Below are positions 16,112 to 37,552 of a DNA stretch of 44,585 nt, one piece after another. Source of the stretch: Desulfobulbaceae bacterium (GTDB taxonomy: Bacteria; Desulfobacterota; Desulfobulbia; Desulfobulbales; Desulfobulbaceae); assembly GCA_019163135.1 (NCBI GenBank), contig JAFLKR010000082.1:1-44585 (forward strand), in the 5' to 3' direction. Each line of letters opens with the position of its first letter. Position 1 is the stretch's first letter. The position numbers were made by a program, and so were the translations under genes. The notes beneath the pieces were generated by a model. That model worked only from the letters and a program-made list of their open reading frames with translations, ran no database searches and was not told where the DNA came from.

Positions 16112-17443
16112 TCAACAACAATGGGCACAACTCTGGTGGGAGCCGATGTATCGCTTGATACTGCTCGCAATGGTCTTGAAAATCTGGACGAACTCCTCTT
16201 CATTTTTTTCCAGCAAGGTGATGCGGAACCCTTGCAGGTCGGTGGCAAAAGACGATAGCGGCACCACGCAGATACCGGTGGCCGCCAGCAGGTAATAGAC
16301 AAAGCGCTTGTCCGGCTGGATATTGGGCCCGGTAACCAACCGCTCGATGGTTTCGCGGACCTCATCGCTTTCTATGGGCAAGGTTTGATGGTGATTGAGT
16401 ACCCATTCCTCGAACACCGCACTCATGTAAAAGGCGCCATTGGTGCGATTAACCAGCAATCCTTTGACATTTTTAAGGATATCGTAGGCCAGATTGGAAT
16501 AGCGCTCGTAGCGTTTGATCCGATTTTTGAGATGCACCAGGTACTGCGGATGCGACTTAATCCGCGGTAGCACGGCCTGCGGCAGGGTGGTTGAACAGAC
16601 CTCAAGCATCTTGGCATTGAAGATCGACTGCACATAGGTGGCGAACATCGGGTCCCGTCGCCGATTATAGACCTCGATCCAGCCGCAACGACTGCCCGGC
16701 CAGGGCATTTCCTTTGAGATCCCACGCATGCAGATCGCCGGAACCTTATCGCCGATGACCGTGGAAAGCGGGGCTGAAACGGTGCCATTGTAAGTCATGT
16801 TCTGATAAATCTCATCGCAAATAATGAAGAGATCATTCTTCTCGCAGATCTCGACAATCGCCCGCATCACATCCGCCGGATAGACCGCGCCGGTGGGGTT
16901 GTCGGGGTTGATCATCAGAATACCGGCAACCGCCGGATTATATTTGATATGATTTTCGATGTCCTCGAGATCCGGATACCAGAGGTGGTTGGGATCCAGG
17001 ATATAGGTCACCGGCTGATCGCTGGCATGGGCGGCCTCGGCCGAACTGTGAGTGGTGTAGCTCGGGGTCGGCACGATCACCCGGGCGGTGGGCTTGAGGA
17101 AACCATAGACCTTGGAGATCGCATCACCCAGGCCGTTGAAGAAAATGATATCGTCGGCATCAATCTGCACCCCGCCCCTGCTGTTGGTACAGGCGGCGAC
17201 ATACTCCCTGGTTGCCAGCAGTCCCTTGGTAGGGCTGTAGGCATAGGTGGCGTCTTCGCGCACCGCTTCGGCGACGATATCTTTCATCCATTCCGGGACC
17301 TGCTCACCTTTGGCAATCGGGTCGCCGATGTTCTCCCAGTTGATCTGCACGCCCATTTTCTGGAGTTTTTCGGCGACGATGACAATATTGCGGATTTCGT
17401 AGTTCAGTTCACCGGCGCCGATGTGTAAAATATCAGTTCGCAT
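16112..17443 (-). CDS. PLP-dependent class I/II aminotransferase
   Basis: A fold-type I aminotransferase of 443 residues, probably acting on an amino acid/2-oxo acid pair; the substrate cannot be told from sequence. Visible PLP-site elements are Tyr69-Ser70 context (YAYSPTKGL), NPDNPTGAVYP (179-189) with the Asn ligand, CDEIYQ (209-214) with the Asp that holds the pyridine nitrogen, and Lys244 in GISKEMPWPGSRCGW as the Schiff-base lysine, with Arg252 near the phosphate. The block SKEMPWPGSRCGW differs from the SKA-type motif of common aspartate or alanine aminotransferases and marks a distinct subgroup. The C-terminus ends in CAHCC, which is unusual. The gene is flanked by terminators on both sides, so it seems monocistronic. 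Confidence 0.9.
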   Translation of the reverse strand: MRTDILHIGAGELNYEIRNIVIVAEKLQKMGVQINWENIGDPIAKGEQVPEWMKDIVAEAVREDATYAYSPTKGLLATREYVAACTNSRGGVQIDADDIIFFNGLGDAISKVYGFLKPTARVIVPTPSYTTHSSAEAAHASDQPVTYILDPNHLWYPDLEDIENHIKYNPAVAGILMINPDNPTGAVYPADVMRAIVEICEKNDLFIICDEIYQNMTYNGTVSAPLSTVIGDKVPAICMRGISKEMPWPGSRCGWIEVYNRRRDPMFATYVQSIFNAKMLEVCSTTLPQAVLPRIKSHPQYLVHLKNRIKRYERYSNLAYDILKNVKGLLVNRTNGAFYMSAVFEEWVLNHHQTLPIESDEVRETIERLVTGPNIQPDKRFVYYLLAATGICVVPLSSFATDLQGFRITLLEKNEEEFVQIFKTIASSIKRYIGSHQSCAHCC

Positions 17444-17480
17444 TGCGGATAGGCTCTTAAATAATTGGTTGGTCGCACAT

Positions 17481-17543
17481 GAAAAATCAACAGCATCCTG
17501 CTGCCGTCGAGGTGCGGGATGACGGCAGCAGGATGCTGTTGAT
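17481..17543 (-). terminator. Long-stem intrinsic terminator after the GGDEF gene
   Basis: A perfect 23-bp inverted repeat (17486-17508 with 17521-17543) encloses a 12-base loop. On the minus strand it is followed by TTTTTC. It lies about 45 bases past the stop of the GGDEF gene and upstream of the aminotransferase. The stem is far longer than needed for termination. Confidence 0.75.
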
Positions 17544-27530: not shown

Positions 27531-30500
27531 ATGACTCAACCAACTCCCCCCACACCTCGCGAAACCTTACTGGATGCCTTCGATCATCTTGCTCCCTTGG
27601 AACAGTCGGTGCTCCAGGTGCTGGCGGTGGTGGCCGAATCGGTGACCAATGGCAAGATACTCGAAATCTGCACAAAAGCCGGCCTGACGCTCCAGGAGGG
27701 CACCGATACTACCGCATCGCGGGCTCTTGCCCATCTGTTGCAAAGGCTGAAAACGCTCCAGCTCATTGATGAGAACCATCTCGTCAACGACGCCATCCTT
27801 GAAATCATCGCTCGGAGACTATTTGCCGACCGGCAGACAACCGTCGTGCCGCCAGCGGCCATGGCGGAATCCAACCATCGTGCGCCCAATCGCACCGCCA
27901 GCAAAACCCGCGGGTCGAAGCCGCTCCCTTTGCCTTTGCCCGTTCCCCTGAGACGGGCCGTGGTGGATGCCGTGCGCGACGTGCTGCCCGCGCCGACCTC
28001 GCTCTATTATCTCCCTGCCCAGCGACTGGCTTCCGCCTGCCGTCGAACCCGGCGGGAATTACGTATCGCCCTGCTGGAAGGCAACGGCCCTCGCCTGGAA
28101 AACCTTACGGACACCCTGCTCACCCACTGCACTGCGCCAAATGATTTGATCGATCCACTGATCCGGTTCGTCAACAACCCCTTCGATGCCTCCTGGTTCA
28201 GCACCTTACCTCCCGAATGGCAGGCCCGGATTCTCTCACGGATTTTCAACCACACCTTCTATTTTCTCGAAGCAGATCGAGAAAGCCTGGATTTCGCCCG
28301 CAATCCGGGTTTATGGAAAGTGGTCCCCGCCAATTACCGGGTGGATCTGGCCTACAACCTGATCACCCATCTCATCCTCGGCGGCCGCATTGCGCAAGCC
28401 CGGCTCTTCTTCAAGGAGATCCGGGTCAAAGGCTTTGTCACCTATTCGTTCGGATTCGAGGGCTGGATCACCCTGCTCGAGGGACGACTGGAGGAGGCGA
28501 TCGACCTCTTTGACGCGGATCTCAAGGAACTGCGCCGCCTGCAAAGCAAGCGCACCATTTTCCTCAGCGGCTATGCCGCTCCCTTTTTCCTCCTCGCCCT
28601 GCTGCGCAAGGGAGACGCCGACAGCCTCAACAAGGCCAAAGTGTATCTCGATCAGGCCCTGCGACGATGCGAACAATTCACCTTCATGGCCGCGGCCCTT
28701 GGCGCCCTTGAGGCCATGCTGGACAGTCACAACGGCCTGAAGCCGAATACCTCCCGGCTGATTTTGTCTAACTTTGTCGATGCCGAGCGCAACGTCCGGG
28801 GAGGCTTGGCCCCCCTGTTCCTCGGCATGGCCTTTTTTGCCATCAACGGCCGACTCACCCCAAAAGACATCGAGGTGCTCAACCTTTGTTTTCTCAAGGC
28901 CCGCGAGGCCGGACTCCTCTGGCTGGCCATGGAATACGCCGAACTTCTCTGCCGCGCCGACCGGGAGACCACGGATCTTCGCAACTTTGTCAACCAGACC
29001 CAAGCCGCAACGGGCCTGCTGCCCCTGAGTGCAGGGGTGATCGTCGAGGAACCGTGGCAAAAAAGCCTACGGGCCCTACGGTTGGCTGCGGAAATGACCC
29101 CAGCAAAAAGCAAAGGGCCGAACAGCGGGACGCAGACCAGGATCGTCTATCTGCTCCGCTTTACCAAAGCAGGGGCGCTGACGGAGATCAGCCCGCTGGA
29201 GCAGAAGTTCACCGCCAAGGGCGCCTGGACCAAGGGACGGCCTATCGCCCTCCAACGGCTGGCCAGCGGCGAAAAACTCGAGGGACTGACCGCAGCCGAC
29301 CAACCCCTGCAGTCCGCTCTCCGCCGTGAGCAATACTATTATGGCAATTTTCAATACGAGTTCAATCTCAATCGGGCCCTACCCGGCCTGATCGGACATC
29401 CGCTCCTGTTTCTTGCCGACTCGCCCGCAACCCCAGTGGAGGTGCTCAAGGGCGAGCCTGAGATTCTGGTGCTGGGCAAGGGCAAGAATCTGGTCATCCA
29501 ATTCTCACCCGAGATCGCCACCGACGAACGCCATGTGCTGGTGCGGGAAACGCCCACCCGCTATCGGGTGATCGAGCTCTCCGAGGCCCACCAGCGCCTG
29601 GCCCGGATTCTCGGGACCAAGGGATTGACCCTGCCGGCCAAAGCCCAAGACGAGATCGCCGCAGTGCTCGCCTCGGTCTCCTCGCTGGTCACCGTCCACT
29701 CCACCATCCCCGGCACCGCGCACTCGATCGAAACGATCCAGGCCGACCCCACCCCCCGCGTCCACCTCCTGCCCCATGGCGAAGGATTCCGCCTGGAGAT
29801 TTTCGTTAAACCCTTCAAGGAAGGCGGGCCCTACCTTAAACCCGGCCAGGGAGTGAAGAATCTCATCGCCGAAGTGACCGGCCGCAAATGCCAGACCGAG
29901 CGCGACCTGAAAGAAGAAAATGCCAGGAGTGCGGCACTGGAGCGTAATCTCCCCGCCCTGACCGCCCTGCCCGAGGTGGACGGCCAGTGGTTTACGGCCG
30001 GCCCGGAGGAGGCGCTGCAGGTGCTGCTGGAACTCCAAGAGGCCCAGGAACGGGGGGAGACCCAGGTCGAATGGCCGGAGGGCGAAAAACTCAAAGTCGG
30101 CAAGGTGGCCTCATTTGCCAATCTGCGCTTAAAGCTCCGCGCCTCGGCCAACTGGTTTGAGGTAGACGGTGACTTGCGCGTGGACGCTGAGCGGGTCCTC
30201 GATATGAAACAGCTCCTCGATCTGCTTCAGGCCACCCCCCATCGCTTCCTGCCCCTGGGGGACGGCCAGTTTGTCGCCCTTTCCCGGGAATTGCGCAAAC
30301 GGTTGGACGAGTTAGCCGCCTATGTCGATAAGCGGGGCAAGAAAGTGAGTCTGCATCCCCTGGCGGCGCTGGCCCTGGAGGAACTCACCGGCCAGGCCGG
30401 CCAGTTAGATGCCGATCCCCAATGGTATGCCCGCTTGGATCGCATCCGTGAAGGGCTGACCGTAACCCCGCCCCTGCCCTCCACCCTAAAGGCGCAATTG

Positions 30501-31868
30501 CGCGACTATCAGATCGAGGGCTATCAGTGGCTGGCCCGGCTTTCACACCTGGGGTTCGGGGCCTGCCTGGCTGATGACATGGGCCTGGGCAAGACCGTCC
30601 AGACCCTGGCGGCAATCCTCCATAACGCTCCGCAGGGGCCGACGCTGGTGGTTGCCCCCACCTCGGTCTGCGCCAACTGGCTGCAGGAGGCCGGACGTTT
30701 CGCCCCCACCCTCAATCTTATCCCCTTTGGCGGCACCAATCGCGAAGCCCTGGTGGCCAGCCTCGGTCCCTTTGACGTGCTGGTGTCGAGCTACGGCCTG
30801 CTCCACCAGGAAGCCGAGACGCTCGCCGCGGTGGACTGGCAGACCGTGATTCTCGACGAGGCCCAGGCCATCAAGAATGCCGCCACCAAACGTTCCCAAG
30901 CGGCCATGGGGCTCAAGGCCAAATTTAAAGTGGTCACCACCGGCACCCCCATCGAAAATCATTTGGGCGAATTCTGGACCTTGTTCAACTTCATCAATCC
31001 CGGCCTGCTCGGCTCCAAAGAACGGTTTCACACGCGCTTTGCCGGCCCCATTGAACGGTCCAATGATCGCGAGGCCCGGAGGCGGTTAAAAAAGCTGGTG
31101 CAGCCCTTCATTCTCCGTCGCCTCAAGTCGCAGGTGCTGGAAGAACTGCCGCCCCGTACCGAGGTGATGCTACAGGTGGAGTTAAGCCCTGAAGAGACCG
31201 CTTTTTACGAGGCCCTGCGCCAAAAAGCCTTGGAGCGGATCGAGGCGGAACAGGGCTCGGCCGGGCAGAAACCGATGCAGATCCTCGCCGAGATCACCCG
31301 GCTCCGCCAGGCCTGCTGCCATCCCCGGCTGATTCACCCCGAAAGCCCGCTGGTCGGTGCAAAACTGACGTTGTTTGGCGAGGTGGTTGCGGAACTCCTG
31401 GAAAACGGGCACAAGGCGCTGGTCTTCAGCCAGTTTGTCGGCCATCTCGCCCTGATCCGCGAATATCTGGACAAACGCAAAATCGCCTACCGCTATCTCG
31501 ACGGCTCCACCCCGGCCAAAGAGCGGCAACAGCAAGTGACCGCCTTCCAGGCCGGCGAAGGCGACCTCTTTCTCATCAGCCTCAAAGCCGGTGGCCTGGG
31601 CCTCAACCTGACCGCAGCCGACTACGTCATCCATATGGACCCCTGGTGGAATCCGGCGGTGGAGGACCAGGCCTCGGACCGGGCCCACCGCATCGGCCAG
31701 GAGCGGCCGGTGACCGTCTACCGGCTGGTGGCGCAGAATACCATCGAGGAAAAGATCGTGCGCATGCACGCTGAAAAACGGGACCTGGCCGACAGCCTGC
31801 TCGACGAAACCGACGCCAGTGCCCGGATTTCTGCGGATGAACTGCTCCGGCTCATCCGCGAGCCGTAG
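27531..31868 (+). CDS. Large SNF2-family DEAD/DEAH-like ATPase
   Basis: A 1445-residue Swi2/Snf2 (HepA/RapA-like superfamily) ATPase. The motor occupies the last ~450 residues: motif I DDMGLGKT (1015-1022), motif II DEAQ (1109-1112), TGTPIENHLGEFW, then the second RecA lobe with ALVFSQFVGHL, YRYLDGSTPAKERQQ, GGLGLNLTAADYVIH and DQASDRAHRIGQ. It probably translocates on double-stranded DNA or remodels protein-DNA complexes. The ~980-residue N-terminal part is not recognised; around 290-400 it has helical-repeat character (LEGRLEEAIDLFDADLKEL). The target is unknown. It follows the lipoprotein gene by 58 bp, with no obvious Shine-Dalgarno, and ends at a bidirectional terminator. Confidence 0.9.
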   Translation: MTQPTPPTPRETLLDAFDHLAPLEQSVLQVLAVVAESVTNGKILEICTKAGLTLQEGTDTTASRALAHLLQRLKTLQLIDENHLVNDAILEIIARRLFADRQTTVVPPAAMAESNHRAPNRTASKTRGSKPLPLPLPVPLRRAVVDAVRDVLPAPTSLYYLPAQRLASACRRTRRELRIALLEGNGPRLENLTDTLLTHCTAPNDLIDPLIRFVNNPFDASWFSTLPPEWQARILSRIFNHTFYFLEADRESLDFARNPGLWKVVPANYRVDLAYNLITHLILGGRIAQARLFFKEIRVKGFVTYSFGFEGWITLLEGRLEEAIDLFDADLKELRRLQSKRTIFLSGYAAPFFLLALLRKGDADSLNKAKVYLDQALRRCEQFTFMAAALGALEAMLDSHNGLKPNTSRLILSNFVDAERNVRGGLAPLFLGMAFFAINGRLTPKDIEVLNLCFLKAREAGLLWLAMEYAELLCRADRETTDLRNFVNQTQAATGLLPLSAGVIVEEPWQKSLRALRLAAEMTPAKSKGPNSGTQTRIVYLLRFTKAGALTEISPLEQKFTAKGAWTKGRPIALQRLASGEKLEGLTAADQPLQSALRREQYYYGNFQYEFNLNRALPGLIGHPLLFLADSPATPVEVLKGEPEILVLGKGKNLVIQFSPEIATDERHVLVRETPTRYRVIELSEAHQRLARILGTKGLTLPAKAQDEIAAVLASVSSLVTVHSTIPGTAHSIETIQADPTPRVHLLPHGEGFRLEIFVKPFKEGGPYLKPGQGVKNLIAEVTGRKCQTERDLKEENARSAALERNLPALTALPEVDGQWFTAGPEEALQVLLELQEAQERGETQVEWPEGEKLKVGKVASFANLRLKLRASANWFEVDGDLRVDAERVLDMKQLLDLLQATPHRFLPLGDGQFVALSRELRKRLDELAAYVDKRGKKVSLHPLAALALEELTGQAGQLDADPQWYARLDRIREGLTVTPPLPSTLKAQLRDYQIEGYQWLARLSHLGFGACLADDMGLGKTVQTLAAILHNAPQGPTLVVAPTSVCANWLQEAGRFAPTLNLIPFGGTNREALVASLGPFDVLVSSYGLLHQEAETLAAVDWQTVILDEAQAIKNAATKRSQAAMGLKAKFKVVTTGTPIENHLGEFWTLFNFINPGLLGSKERFHTRFAGPIERSNDREARRRLKKLVQPFILRRLKSQVLEELPPRTEVMLQVELSPEETAFYEALRQKALERIEAEQGSAGQKPMQILAEITRLRQACCHPRLIHPESPLVGAKLTLFGEVVAELLENGHKALVFSQFVGHLALIREYLDKRKIAYRYLDGSTPAKERQQQVTAFQAGEGDLFLISLKAGGLGLNLTAADYVIHMDPWWNPAVEDQASDRAHRIGQERPVTVYRLVAQNTIEEKIVRMHAEKRDLADSLLDETDASARISADELLRLIREP

Positions 31869-32218: not shown

Positions 32219-33334
32219 TTACCCCAAATACTCCAAAGCAATCTTTAGCATCCGGCGCACCGGTTCGGCGGCGCCCCACAATAATTGATCGCCGACGGAA
32301 AAGGCGCTCAGGTATTCGGGCCCGAGGTTCATCTTGCGAAGGCGACCCACCGGGATATCGAGGGTACCGGTGACCCGGGCTGGAGTTAGTTCCCTCAAGG
32401 TCTGTTCCTTGGTGTTTTCCACCAGATAGACCCATTGGTTCTGATTGGCGATGGCCTGCTCGATCTCGGCCAAGGGAATATCGCGTTTGAGCTTGATGGT
32501 AAAGGCCTGGCTGTGGCAGCGCATGGCGGAAATGCGGACGCAGCAGCCGTCAATCGGAATGGGCTGGCCGGTGCCCCCCAGGATCTTATTGGTCTCGGTG
32601 ACGCCCTTCCATTCCTCACGGGTCTGGCCGTTTTCCATGAGGGTGTCGATCCAGGGTATGAGGCTGCCAGCGAGCGGCGCCCCGAAATTGGTGATTGGGA
32701 AGGCCGGGTTGCGCAAGGTTTCGACCACGTTGCGATCGAGATCAAGGATGGACGAAGGATGGTCCAGCAGGTTTTCGGCGTTCTCGCCGACCAACCGCAT
32801 CTGCTCCACCAGTTCCCGCATGTTCTTGGCGCCGGCCCCGGAGGCGGCCTGATAGGTCTGGCTGGTGACCCATTCCACCCAGCCCTGCTCGAACAGTCCG
32901 CCCAAGGCCATTAGCATCAGGGAAACCGTGCAGTTGCCACCGATATATTTTTTAATGCCCTTGGCCAGTCCCTGATCGATGACCTTGCGGTTCACCGGAT
33001 CAAGGACAATAATCGCATCCTTATCCAGGCGCAGCTTGGAAGCGGCATCAATCCAGTAGCCCTGCCAGCCCAATTGCATCAGTTGCGGATAAATTTCAGC
33101 AGTATAACTGCCACCCTGACAACTGACGATGATATCCAGATCTTTGAGCAGGCCCGCATTGCGGCCATCGAGCAGTTCATAAACCGTACCGTTGACGGTT
33201 GGGCCGGCCTGACCGGCCTGGGAGGTGGAAAAAAAACGGGGCTCATAGCCGTCAAAATCCCCTTCTTGCCGCATCCGCTCCATGAGCACGGAACCAACCA
33301 TGCCGCGCCAACCAACAATACCTACTCTTTTCAT
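32219..33334 (-). CDS. asd: Aspartate-semialdehyde dehydrogenase
   Basis: Asd reduces aspartyl phosphate to aspartate semialdehyde, the branch point to lysine/diaminopimelate, threonine and methionine. The 371-residue protein starts with the NADP-binding [11 protein letters not shown] (5-15). The nucleophile is Cys135 in [13 protein letters not shown] and the acid-base His is His274 in [14 protein letters not shown], the same numbers as in the E. coli enzyme. The length and these blocks put it in the E. coli-like Gram-negative class rather than the shorter Gram-positive class. It is the last gene of a leuB-prs-asd cluster, 49 bp after the PRPP synthetase gene. Confidence 0.95.
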
Positions 33335-33383: not shown

Positions 33384-34304
33384 TTATTGAATTCGAAAAT
33401 ACTTTTTCAACTCTTCCGCAATCACCGGGGCCACAGAATAAATCTGCAAGAGTGCATCGCTCTCCCGCCCTGGATAGGTGTCGGCTCCGATAATGCAGCC
33501 GATGCCTTTTTCGACAAATCGTTCCCGGGCCCCCCCGGACAGGACCAGATGGGTGGCCATCACCATCACCCCGATTGCCCCGGCCTGGTAGCAGCGGTCC
33601 ACGGTCTGCAACATGGAACCGCCGGTGCGAATCATATCGTCGCAAATGATCGCGGTTCGCCCTCGGACGGCCCCGGACAACTGGCCGACAATGGTCTGGT
33701 CGACATCGTACCGATCCTTGTTAGCGGCGGTATGCGGGCACCCCAGCAGCCCCGCCAGCCGCGCCACCCGCTTGCTGAAACCGTAATCCGGCGACACCAG
33801 CACCATATTCTCCAACCGCAGCTGCCGGATTTTTTCGGCGGCCACTTGTTCGGTCCAGAGGTGGCGGGTGCGGACCTCACCGGTGTGGGCGTGCATCACC
33901 GATTCCGAATGGAGATCGATAAAGGCGACAAAATCGGGCCGGGCCCTGAAGATCTGCCGGGTACGGGTGATCCCCTTGGGGATCTCACCGGACTCGGGTT
34001 TGGCACGCTCCATGGTGGAGTAGCCCAGATAAGGAATGACCACATTGACCGACAAGGCATTCCAAAATCGCGCCCCGGCGATCAGGTCGATCAGTTCCTG
34101 GTGGGCGGTGTCATCCGGGGTATTGGCAATGATCACCAGGTCGTGGCCGGCAATGTCACGGGGAAAGGCATGAAAGATTTCACCGTCGGCAAAGGTCTTA
34201 GTGATCATCTCGGTCACCGGGACATCGAGTTCCCGGGCGACCTCGGCGGCCATCCGGGCGGCGGAGCGGTTACTGATCAGAATGAGATTCTTCCGTTTCG
34301 ACAT
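33384..34304 (-). CDS. Divergent ribose-phosphate pyrophosphokinase (PRPP synthetase)
   Basis: This 306-residue protein has the PRPP synthetase layout, making PRPP from ribose 5-phosphate and ATP. The PRPP-binding loop is [13 protein letters not shown] (219-231). The catalytic Lys/Arg pair is kept as NKDR (Lys196, Arg198). DLH at 130-132 and FADGE at 38-42 match the family. However, the flexible catalytic loop region reads [17 protein letters not shown] (95-111) in place of the usual YARQDRK-type sequence, and the DLHxxQIQGFF block is replaced by [13 protein letters not shown]. It is thus a distant subgroup, or possibly a related phosphoribosyl enzyme. The gene lies 21 bp after leuB. Confidence 0.8.
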
Positions 34305-34325
34305 GCCTCTTCCTCGCTGGTAATT

Positions 34326-35462
<1,137 letters not shown>

Positions 35463-35516: not shown

Positions 35517-36200
35517 TCAGTAAATCCCCACCACCGCCAGCAGTCGGGGGACGCCGGTGAGCGGCAGGGCCAAAGGCTTGGTTTCGATGATCCGCCAGGG
35601 TCCGAAAGCCATCTCCTCTATCCCGGCCAGAGCTTCCTCGCGGGCCAGCATGAGGATAACTTTGGTTTCGGCAGTGACCAGCGACCGCACCAAGGGCAGG
35701 AAGAGACCCGGCTCGGCCACCGCCCGGCTGGTAATATGGGAAAATCGCCCCTGCCAGGCGAGGGCATGGGGCTCAATCCGATCGGCCACCACCTCGACGT
35801 TGTTCAACTGCAAGGTGCGAAGCAGGTGACGGAGAAAGGTGACCCGTTTCTGGCGCGGCTCCACCAGGGTGAAGCGGGCCTCAGGCAGGACGCAAGCCAG
35901 CACCAAACCGGGGAAGCCGGCACCGGTGCCAACATCGAGCAGATGTACCTCGCGGCTCCCCTCGGCGAGCAACAGGGGCAGGAGGGTGAGCGAGTCGAGG
36001 AAATGATTTCCCAGGATCTGGACTTCCGGGGTATCGCGGGCGATCAGGTTGATCCGCCGGCTCCATTTGGTCAGCTCACCAAAATAGATCAGGAGCCGGT
36101 CGAGTTCCGCGCTACCGAGGGCGATTCCCAGTTTTCCGGCACCTTCCTGAAGGAGTTTGCGCTTATCAAGCACCGACCCGTACCGCCACCGAATTTCCAT
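35517..36200 (-). CDS. rsmG: 16S rRNA (guanine-N7)-methyltransferase RsmG
   Basis: RsmG (GidB) methylates G527 of 16S rRNA. From the ATG at 36200 the protein has 227 residues. The family blocks are LTKWSRRINLIARD, NHFLDSLTLLPLL, the SAM-binding LLDVGTGAGFPGLVLA and ITSRAVAEPGLFLPL. The ATG start overlaps hisD by 35 bases; an in-frame GTG at 36173 would give 218 residues, an 8-base overlap with the hisD stop (GTGCTTGA), and an N-terminus VLDKRKLLQEGA that fits the family better, so the GTG is a real alternative. It is translationally linked to hisD. Confidence 0.93.
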   Translation of the reverse strand: MEIRWRYGSVLDKRKLLQEGAGKLGIALGSAELDRLLIYFGELTKWSRRINLIARDTPEVQILGNHFLDSLTLLPLLLAEGSREVHLLDVGTGAGFPGLVLACVLPEARFTLVEPRQKRVTFLRHLLRTLQLNNVEVVADRIEPHALAWQGRFSHITSRAVAEPGLFLPLVRSLVTAETKVILMLAREEALAGIEEMAFGPWRIIETKPLALPLTGVPRLLAVVGIY

Positions 36201-37476
36201 GGGCGGTCAAACCCTCGAGGGCGGCCAGCCGCCGGATATGAACACTATCGGCCACCAGGGCCTGGCGGGAATAGGAGATGATCGAGCTTTTTTTCAAGAA
36301 GGTCTCCACCCCCAGGGCCGAGGAGATCCTCGCCGTACCCATGGTCGGCAGGACATGGTTGGGACCGGCGACATAATCGCCCACAGCCTCCGGTGTCCAG
36401 GAACCGAGGAAAATCGCGCCGGCGTGGCGAATGCGCGGCAGCCACTGCCAGGGCTCCCTGACCTGCAGTTCCAGATGTTCGATGGCAATTTCGTTGGCCA
36501 AATCCATCGCCTCTTCCAGGCTGTCGACCAGCAGGATCAAGCCCCGAGCCGCCAATGCAGTCCGTGCAATATCGGCCCGCGGCAACTGCGGCAACTGCTG
36601 CTCCAGTTCCCGGAACACCTGAGCGGCCAATTCCTCACTGGTGGTGATCACCATGGCCAGGGCCTGGGGATCGTGCTCGGCCTGAGCCAGCATGTCGGCG
36701 GCGACAAAGGCGGCTTCAGCGGTTTCATCGGCCACGATCAGCACCTCGCTGGGACCAGCGATCATATCGATCCGTACCCGGCCCATCACTTGGCGCTTGG
36801 CCTCGGCCACATATTGGTTGCCCGGCCCGACAATCACATCCACCGGAGCAATGGTGGCGGTGCCGTACGCTAACGCGCCGATGGCCCAGGCTGATCCGAC
36901 CTTGTAAATTTCTGTGATGCCGATCTCGCGGGCCGCGACCAATAGAGCCGGACTGACGCCTCCCTCGGGATTAGGCGGAGTCACCATCACCCGCCGCTGC
37001 ACACCGGCTATCTGAGCCGGAATACCGTTCATCAGCACCGAGGACACCAAGGGAGTCGAGCCCTCTTTGCCGCCCGGCACGTAAAGGCCCGCCGAGTCCA
37101 CCGGGCGCACCAGCCGGCCGGTGATGGTCCCATCCTCGCGGGTCAGCATCCAGGAATCCTCAAGCTCGCGCTCATGGAAGGTGCGGATCCGATCGGCCGC
37201 AAACCGCAAGGTCTCACGAAAAGCCGAATCCACGGCCTGCTGCGCCCGTTCAAATTCTTCGGGGGTAACCCGCAGGGTCTCCATAGTCATCGCCGGGCTG
37301 TCGAATTGCCGGCAGTAATCAAGCAACGCCGCATCCCCTTCATGCCGGACTCGGGCAAGAATGGCGTCTACCGCAGCCCGGCAGCCGGTGTCGGTTTCTT
37401 CGGCAAACCGATTGCGCAAGGCCTGCATGCAATGCCGCCCTTCCGGGGAATTGCTTCGAATCGTCTGAATCTTCAT
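36166..37476 (-). CDS. hisD: Histidinol dehydrogenase
   Basis: HisD oxidises histidinol to histidine in two NAD-dependent steps. The 436-residue protein has the zinc ligands Gln265, His268, Asp367 and His426 and the catalytic Glu333/His334 (AIEHLEL). Other blocks are GLYVPGGKEGSTPLVSSVLM, VGPGNQYVAEAKR and AGPSEVLIVAD. I use the ATG at 37476, with AGGTGA about 10 bases upstream, rather than the Met at 37497. It is followed by rsmG with overlap. No other his gene is in the window. Confidence 0.95.
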   Translation of the reverse strand: MKIQTIRSNSPEGRHCMQALRNRFAEETDTGCRAAVDAILARVRHEGDAALLDYCRQFDSPAMTMETLRVTPEEFERAQQAVDSAFRETLRFAADRIRTFHERELEDSWMLTREDGTITGRLVRPVDSAGLYVPGGKEGSTPLVSSVLMNGIPAQIAGVQRRVMVTPPNPEGGVSPALLVAAREIGITEIYKVGSAWAIGALAYGTATIAPVDVIVGPGNQYVAEAKRQVMGRVRIDMIAGPSEVLIVADETAEAAFVAADMLAQAEHDPQALAMVITTSEELAAQVFRELEQQLPQLPRADIARTALAARGLILLVDSLEEAMDLANEIAIEHLELQVREPWQWLPRIRHAGAIFLGSWTPEAVGDYVAGPNHVLPTMGTARISSALGVETFLKKSSIISYSRQALVADSVHIRRLAALEGLTAHGNSVAVRVGA

Positions 37477-37552
37477 AATCTCGTCACCTGCGTCCATCTC
37501 GTTTACGATATACGATATAAGCCGAAAAACGATCTCCGGATAAAAAGCCGTT

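Follow-up and report, generated by a model that had tools for sequence, protein, structure and literature searches.

A divergent PRPP synthetase paralogue with class IV sequence marks beside leuB, and often asd, in Desulfobulbus and its relatives

Class IV PRPP synthetases were named in June 2026 in a bioRxiv preprint by Karki, Meller, and Cunningham (PMC13252144). The part of that preprint drawn on here gives their marks as an STMER flexible loop, a FLAG glutamate (E39) that is mostly retained, and C-terminal residues that are not conserved or are absent; it describes a eukaryotic class IV enzyme as active on ribose 5-phosphate (R5P) and ATP, and reports that class I is also present in 74% of class IV species. 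Class II enzymes are described there as having a TTMER loop and having lost C-terminal residues, with several donors used by the plant enzymes, and the profile that best fits the ancestor of eukaryotic class II is assigned to Thermodesulfobacteria. No word beginning with "Desulfo" occurs in its main text; since it names Thermodesulfobacteria and Desulfobulbus belongs to the phylum Thermodesulfobacteriota (order Desulfobulbales), its authors may hold sequences related to those described below. Within the set of papers searched, STMER together with PRPP returned nothing apart from this preprint, and there was no joint mention of Desulfobulb names and PRPP synthetase names among the matches listed. 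For class I, the portion of PMC6332680 used here lists R96, Q97, and D98 of the E. coli enzyme as nucleotide contacts and R49, S81, Q136, D144, S308, S310, and F313 as allosteric residues.

Here we describe prsX, a gene found in a 44,585-nucleotide stretch of DNA from a Desulfobulbaceae bacterium (assembly GCA_019163135.1, contig JAFLKR010000082.1), hereafter the window. Our reading, to which we give a probability of roughly 0.7, is that it encodes an auxiliary, class IV-type second PRPP synthetase that would work without allosteric control, beside a class I enzyme, from a cluster with leuB and often asd.

The prsX gene and its predicted fold

The prsX gene occupies positions 33384 to 34304 of the minus strand, with an ATG start and a product of 306 residues. 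A first-pass annotation had placed a divergent PRPP synthetase here, between leuB and asd, without giving a strand; the coordinates are right, and all three genes lie on the minus strand. The leuB gene (34326 to 35426; isopropylmalate dehydrogenase family, Pfam Iso_dh) ends 21 nt upstream, and asd (32219 to 33334; aspartate-semialdehyde dehydrogenase family, Pfam Semialdhyde_dh and dhC) begins 49 nt downstream. A purine-rich stretch read from the sequence just upstream of prsX, AGGAAGAGG (34306 to 34314, minus strand), is a probable ribosome-binding site. On the same strand lie rsmG/gidB (35517 to 36200; Pfam GidB) and hisD, encoding histidinol dehydrogenase (36166 to 37497; Pfam Histidinol_dh). 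A scan for promoters and terminators gave nothing clear, and Rfam families had no match anywhere in the window. Opposite prsX and part of leuB there is an open frame of 409 aa (33387 to 34616, plus strand). A gene named by reading as an SNF2-type helicase lies at 27531 to 31868, and such a helicase is also found near the asd or hisD side in seven other loci (L040, L045, L046, L052, L058, L067, and L105).

The prsX product scores 178.7 bits against TIGR01251, the NCBIfam model for PRPP synthetase (cut-off, 113; E = 1.3e-52), and falls well under the cut-off of each of ten further, narrower NCBIfam models reported; Pfam identifies PRPP-synthetase N-terminal and phosphoribosyltransferase domains. 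An AlphaFold2 model built from an input of 30 family members has a mean pLDDT of 88.1 and a pTM of 0.87, and is less certain at residues 91-110 and 201-210 (pLDDT 67-69), in or near two catalytic loops. A Foldseek search with this model gave, among the 50 matches listed, nothing but PRPP synthetases of solved structure, at query TM scores of 0.80-0.86.

A scan of named genomes found 78 prsX loci whose products are 56-96% identical to the window protein; the scan seeds on short peptide patterns of the query, so it finds close relatives, and it is the sole coverage of other phyla. Locus titles include Desulfobulbus, Desulfogranum, Desulfopila, Desulforhopalus, cable bacteria (Electrothrix and Electronema), and other Desulfobulbaceae; some are broad (Deltaproteobacteria, Desulfobacteraceae, bacterium), which leaves the order not proven for each. 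From the TIGR01251 E value, the identity across these loci, and the match of model to fold, the open reading frame is a real gene, far beyond chance, and prsX is a real, conserved, divergent PRPP synthetase paralogue.

Catalytic, nucleotide-binding, and allosteric residues

Residues were counted over 77 aligned members of the prsX family and 20 class I sequences, with E. coli numbering used for class I sites. F38, D40, E42, D130, H132, D173, K196, R198, D222, D223, T227, and G229 are invariant in all 77. They include the FLAG F/D/E, the D/H and K/R pairs, and the DD-T-G loop, which we take to have the core catalytic roles; D173, D222, D223, T227, and G229 presumably act on R5P. The FLAG region, F38-A-D40-G-E42 (34179 to 34193, minus strand, as are all the following features), which holds nucleotide contacts, is kept, with F, D, and E in every aligned member. 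The catalytic arm, K196-D197-R198 (33711 to 33719), where class I has K-R-R, has each of its residues in 77 of 77, in agreement with the first-pass statement that the Lys/Arg pair is kept. The same annotation had the PRPP loop as kept, which is true in part: the PRPP/R5P loop DDMIRTGGS (residues 222-230; 33615 to 33641) is present, but Arg stands in for E. coli Asp224 and Ser for Thr228, in 77/77 members and in 5/5 relatives from viral contigs described below.

Two further regions had been noted as differing strongly, and both do. The regulatory flexible (RF) loop reads STMER (residues 96-100; 34005 to 34019) against ARQDR in the YARQDRK region of class I; E. coli R96 corresponds to T97 of prsX. 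The substitutions R96T, Q97M, and D98E are found in 77/77 members, and the residue after STME is Arg in 64 and Gln in 13. In the block equivalent to the class I DLHxxQIQGFF (residues 130-143; 33876 to 33917), D130 and H132 are kept across the alignment of 77 members, the allosteric Gln136 is lost, and there is a two-residue insertion.

At R49, S81, Q136, and D144, none of the 77 family members has the class I residue. S308 and S310 are Ser in 2/77 each, the S310 column being a gap in 67; the F313 column is a gap in 71 and is never Phe. The window protein itself ends before E. coli S310 and F313, lacks the RQD loop, and has none of the seven class I allosteric residues. The earlier suggestion of altered regulation thus stands at the level of residues: in nearly all members the allosteric positions and the tail of class I have been substituted or lost.

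These same residues bear on whether prsX might be a diphosphotransferase with the PRPP-synthetase fold that acts on another sugar-phosphate acceptor or prefers a donor other than ATP. We regard this as doubtful. An Arg in the loop for the R5P phosphate, also present in the 5/5 viral-contig relatives, would suit it, as would the Asp flanked by the catalytic Lys and Arg, Tyr174, the loss of R96, the HAH motif, and the setting beside leuB and asd. Set against it, D173, D222, D223, T227, and G229, whose R5P role we assume in part, are all kept, and the preprint (PMC13252144) describes activity of a class IV enzyme on R5P and ATP. A more specific form is tentative in like degree: an order-specific enzyme in which the adenine-site change and the R5P-loop Arg shift the donor or acceptor, for example to GTP or another NTP, or to a sugar phosphate other than R5P, and which would supply a route linked to amino acids or to energy rather than the general pool of PRPP. 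The first-pass idea of a new phosphoribosyl enzyme finds no support: none of the core catalytic residues tested varies, and the substitutions are those of class IV, one of whose enzymes used R5P and ATP in the preprint.

That prsX is an ordinary class I enzyme changed by no more than drift is improbable. Such an origin would account for the shared family and fold and for the TIGR01251 score above cut-off, but R96, Q97, D98, D224, and T228, which are kept in 20/20 class I sequences, are each swapped for one identical residue in 77/77 prsX members, the allosteric positions are not kept, and class I groups without prsX in the tree described next.

Kinship, distribution, and coexistence with a canonical prs

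Three class IV marks are found in prsX: the STMER loop with Thr for R96, the FLAG glutamate (E42, 77/77), and the disappearance of the class I C-terminal residues. A DNA pattern scan of IMG/VR returned at least 80 stretches, and three of the matches listed encode STMER PRPP synthetases, which score higher with a prsX-family profile than with a class I profile; two further STMER proteins on viral contigs are relatives of one of these three, making five (L201, L225, L237, L269, and L271). All five carry R96T, Q97M, D98E, D224R, and T228S. They share with prsX the RF loop, the PRPP-loop Arg, a short deletion near position 65, and an insertion after DLH, and differ by a three-residue insertion before DLH. 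The K-D-R, SPDYG, and HAH motifs of the prsX family are not shared with them, so the substrate details of prsX may differ from those of the viral-contig class IV proteins. A polynucleotide kinase/phosphatase-like gene lies near the viral STMER PRPP synthetase in two of these contigs (L237:1073-3064 and L201:76-2721).

In a tree of the prsX family, the five viral-contig proteins, class I sequences, and a single class III stretch of archaeal origin, the first two grouped apart from the rest (UFB 100, SH-aLRT 98, with a warning from the tree tool of long branches meeting). The subgroup phylogeny proposed as a check by the first-pass annotation accordingly has class I forming a group without the prsX family. 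A simpler model gave the same grouping (SH-aLRT 99.6, UFB 100). With the motif regions removed it stayed at SH-aLRT 58.9 and UFB 88, and from this drop we conclude that the kinship of prsX and the viral-contig proteins rests largely on active-site regions; the shared loops could be partly convergent, or prsX could be a deep separate branch. When a class II row was added, the prsX family, the viral contigs, and class II came together (UFB 99, SH-aLRT 96, with the same long-branch warning), and the sister relation of the prsX family and the viral-contig proteins reached only UFB 90 and SH-aLRT 77. A class IV profile run against 395 genomes of the phylum scored 12 prsX members at 160.9-185 bits and ranked nine of them first; the top-scoring class I protein, whose loop reads GYARQDR, reached 165.6 bits and outranked three of the 12. 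Going by its sequence marks, prsX is a class IV member or a close sister.

Class II was considered and rejected. A plant class II sequence had no match in the window's genome at E 1e-12; it matched 256 of the 395 phylum genomes (best E, 5.3e-21), and for the best 20 of these matches the class I profile gave much higher scores than the prsX-family profile did. Against plasmids and phages the same query found nothing closer.

A profile search of the 395 phylum genomes, whose kinship is known, found the prsX family in 12, every one of which belongs to the window's order; a single-sequence search agrees, its next matches beyond the family being about 30-33% identical. Among 55 related genomes, the window's included, the family is present in 33 (E < 1e-100) and absent from 22, some of which are incomplete. 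A phage or plasmid origin was rejected: 36 phage and 175 plasmid records matched, none at 60% identity or above, and a search of viral contigs with the prsX-family profile found no relative.

The first-pass annotation had offered prsX either as the sole PRPP synthetase of its genome or as a paralogue, and had proposed looking for a canonical prs elsewhere. One is found on contig C12 (positions 16571-17491; TIGR01251, 414 bits) of the window's genome, which is 98.95% complete. This refutes the first alternative and bears out the second. The two proteins are 27% identical, and prs adjoins ispE-, rplY-, and pth-like genes, named by reading their open reading frames. Each of the 33 prsX-bearing genomes among the 55 also has another match at class I level, which in one genome (G025) is partial. 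One relative (L141, G040:C162) has a third, different PRPP-synthetase-like gene, with a YARKD loop and the PRPP loop DDLISSGTT.

This constant company of a class I-level protein would also suit a protein that regulates the class I enzyme without being catalytic itself, comparable to the PRPS-associated proteins, and the preprint reports more than 30 PRPS pseudoenzyme events in eukaryotes (PMC13252144). There is little likelihood of this: a pseudoenzyme would not need the core catalytic residues, and those tested do not vary in 77/77 members. Least probable of all, and unlikely as a route for prsX, is an ADP-ribose-pyrophosphate synthetase (Adps, NARP1) that pyrophosphorylates ADP-ribose for NAD+ repair (as described in the parts of PMC12774641, PMC13232231, and PMC12846349 drawn on here): Adps is a counterpart of PRPP synthetase that acts on a different substrate, and a bacterial NARP1 exists (PMC12774641), but the phage PAK_P1 protein, which an analogy with phage Adele suggests to be Adps, keeps YARQDR, has DDICDGG, and lies near a gene annotated as nicotinamide phosphoribosyl transferase; the PAK_P1, KB57, and Aswh_1 proteins (three sequences, with Adps identity by analogy) all keep RQD and form a clade separate from prsX; and PF04095, a Nampt/Namat-type family, has no match in the window's nearly complete genome or in 23 of 33 prsX-bearing relatives.

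Gene neighbourhood and proposed role

Of the 78 loci, 64 have leuB upstream of prsX on the same strand, 58 of them at a distance of no more than 300 nt, and 46 have asd downstream on the same strand; where found, neither is ever on the opposite strand. Three of the 14 loci without leuB have no more than about 440 nt of sequence upstream. Eleven loci (L098-L104 and L106-L109), whose proteins are 56-62% identical to the window protein, have no leuB neighbour. In these, a gene for a Zn-ribbon ParA-like ATPase is found in 7/11 and a PilZ-like gene follows in 8/11, names that come from Pfam for L099 and L102, the downstream PilZ in L102 being below cut-off; the setting suggests a possible tie to signalling or to functions of the cell surface.

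In two loci a corA Mg2+ transporter gene lies between leuB and prsX (L061:3310-5169, Desulfobulbus sp. F5; L062:7058-7990, Electronema), and in L061 CorA and PrsX share one open frame of about 620 aa, which may be a genuine fusion or an error of assembly. What looked like a second prsX in L061, L062, and L072 was rejected as a clustering artefact, the extra gene in L061 and L062, the two run against Pfam, being corA.

A link to histidine synthesis through hisG was considered and rejected, as the presence of prsX does not track that of hisG: both occur in 27 of the 55 genomes, prsX alone in 6, hisG alone in 20, and neither in 2 (Fisher p 0.45; the hisG model missed 1/14 controls, and some of the genomes are incomplete). 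For leuB, 34 genomes of the window's family gave both genes in 26, neither in 7, leuB alone in 1, and prsX alone in 0, so that 33/34 have the two in the same state; at 89% completeness or above, 19 have both and 3 neither. Across all 55 genomes the counts are 33 with both, 14 with leuB only, 8 with neither, and 0 with prsX only. Because the genes are neighbours and the genomes related, loss as a block accounts equally well for this co-presence. The tie to amino-acid synthesis proposed at first pass has synteny in its favour, through the position of leuB in most loci, and is weakened by the 11 loci that lack it and by hisG.

Returning to an auxiliary, class IV-type second PRPP synthetase as the preferred reading, we propose that prsX, with the usual fold and core catalytic residues, would move the diphosphoryl group of ATP, and possibly of other NTPs, to C1 of R5P. 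Since Thr takes the place of R96 in the adenine-recognising loop, and the allosteric residues and tail are substituted or absent, the enzyme would be expected to accept further donors, to be independent of phosphate, and to escape allosteric inhibition by ADP. The gene is probably cotranscribed with leuB, and often asd, which would match PRPP supply to amino-acid synthesis; PRPP might then be made at the pace of that synthesis even when ADP holds back the class I enzyme, the weakest step of the proposal.

The kind of enzyme is already known; what is new here is the lineage and the gene setting, a deep bacterial branch with class IV marks in Desulfobulbus and the relatives of cable bacteria, kept beside class I. 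It offers a test case for whether the STMER loop relaxes the use of nucleotide donors, and for why many bacteria keep a second PRPP synthetase without the class I feedback site.

Compared with class I, represented by E. coli Prs and the genome's own prs, prsX has the same predicted fold, FLAG region, D/H and K/R residues, and most of the PRPP loop, but differs in the RF loop, at Asp224, in the allosteric site, and in the tail. Compared with class II, it has STMER against TTMER and a similar loss of C-terminal residues, whereas class II lacks the FLAG glutamate that prsX keeps, a difference that favours class IV over class II. With class IV it shares the STMER loop with Thr for R96, the retained FLAG glutamate, the lost class I C-terminal residues, and coexistence with class I; it differs in that the prsX family forms a deep branch (length 2.5) of the window's order, has the K-D-R, SPDYG, and HAH motifs, and clusters with leuB and often asd.
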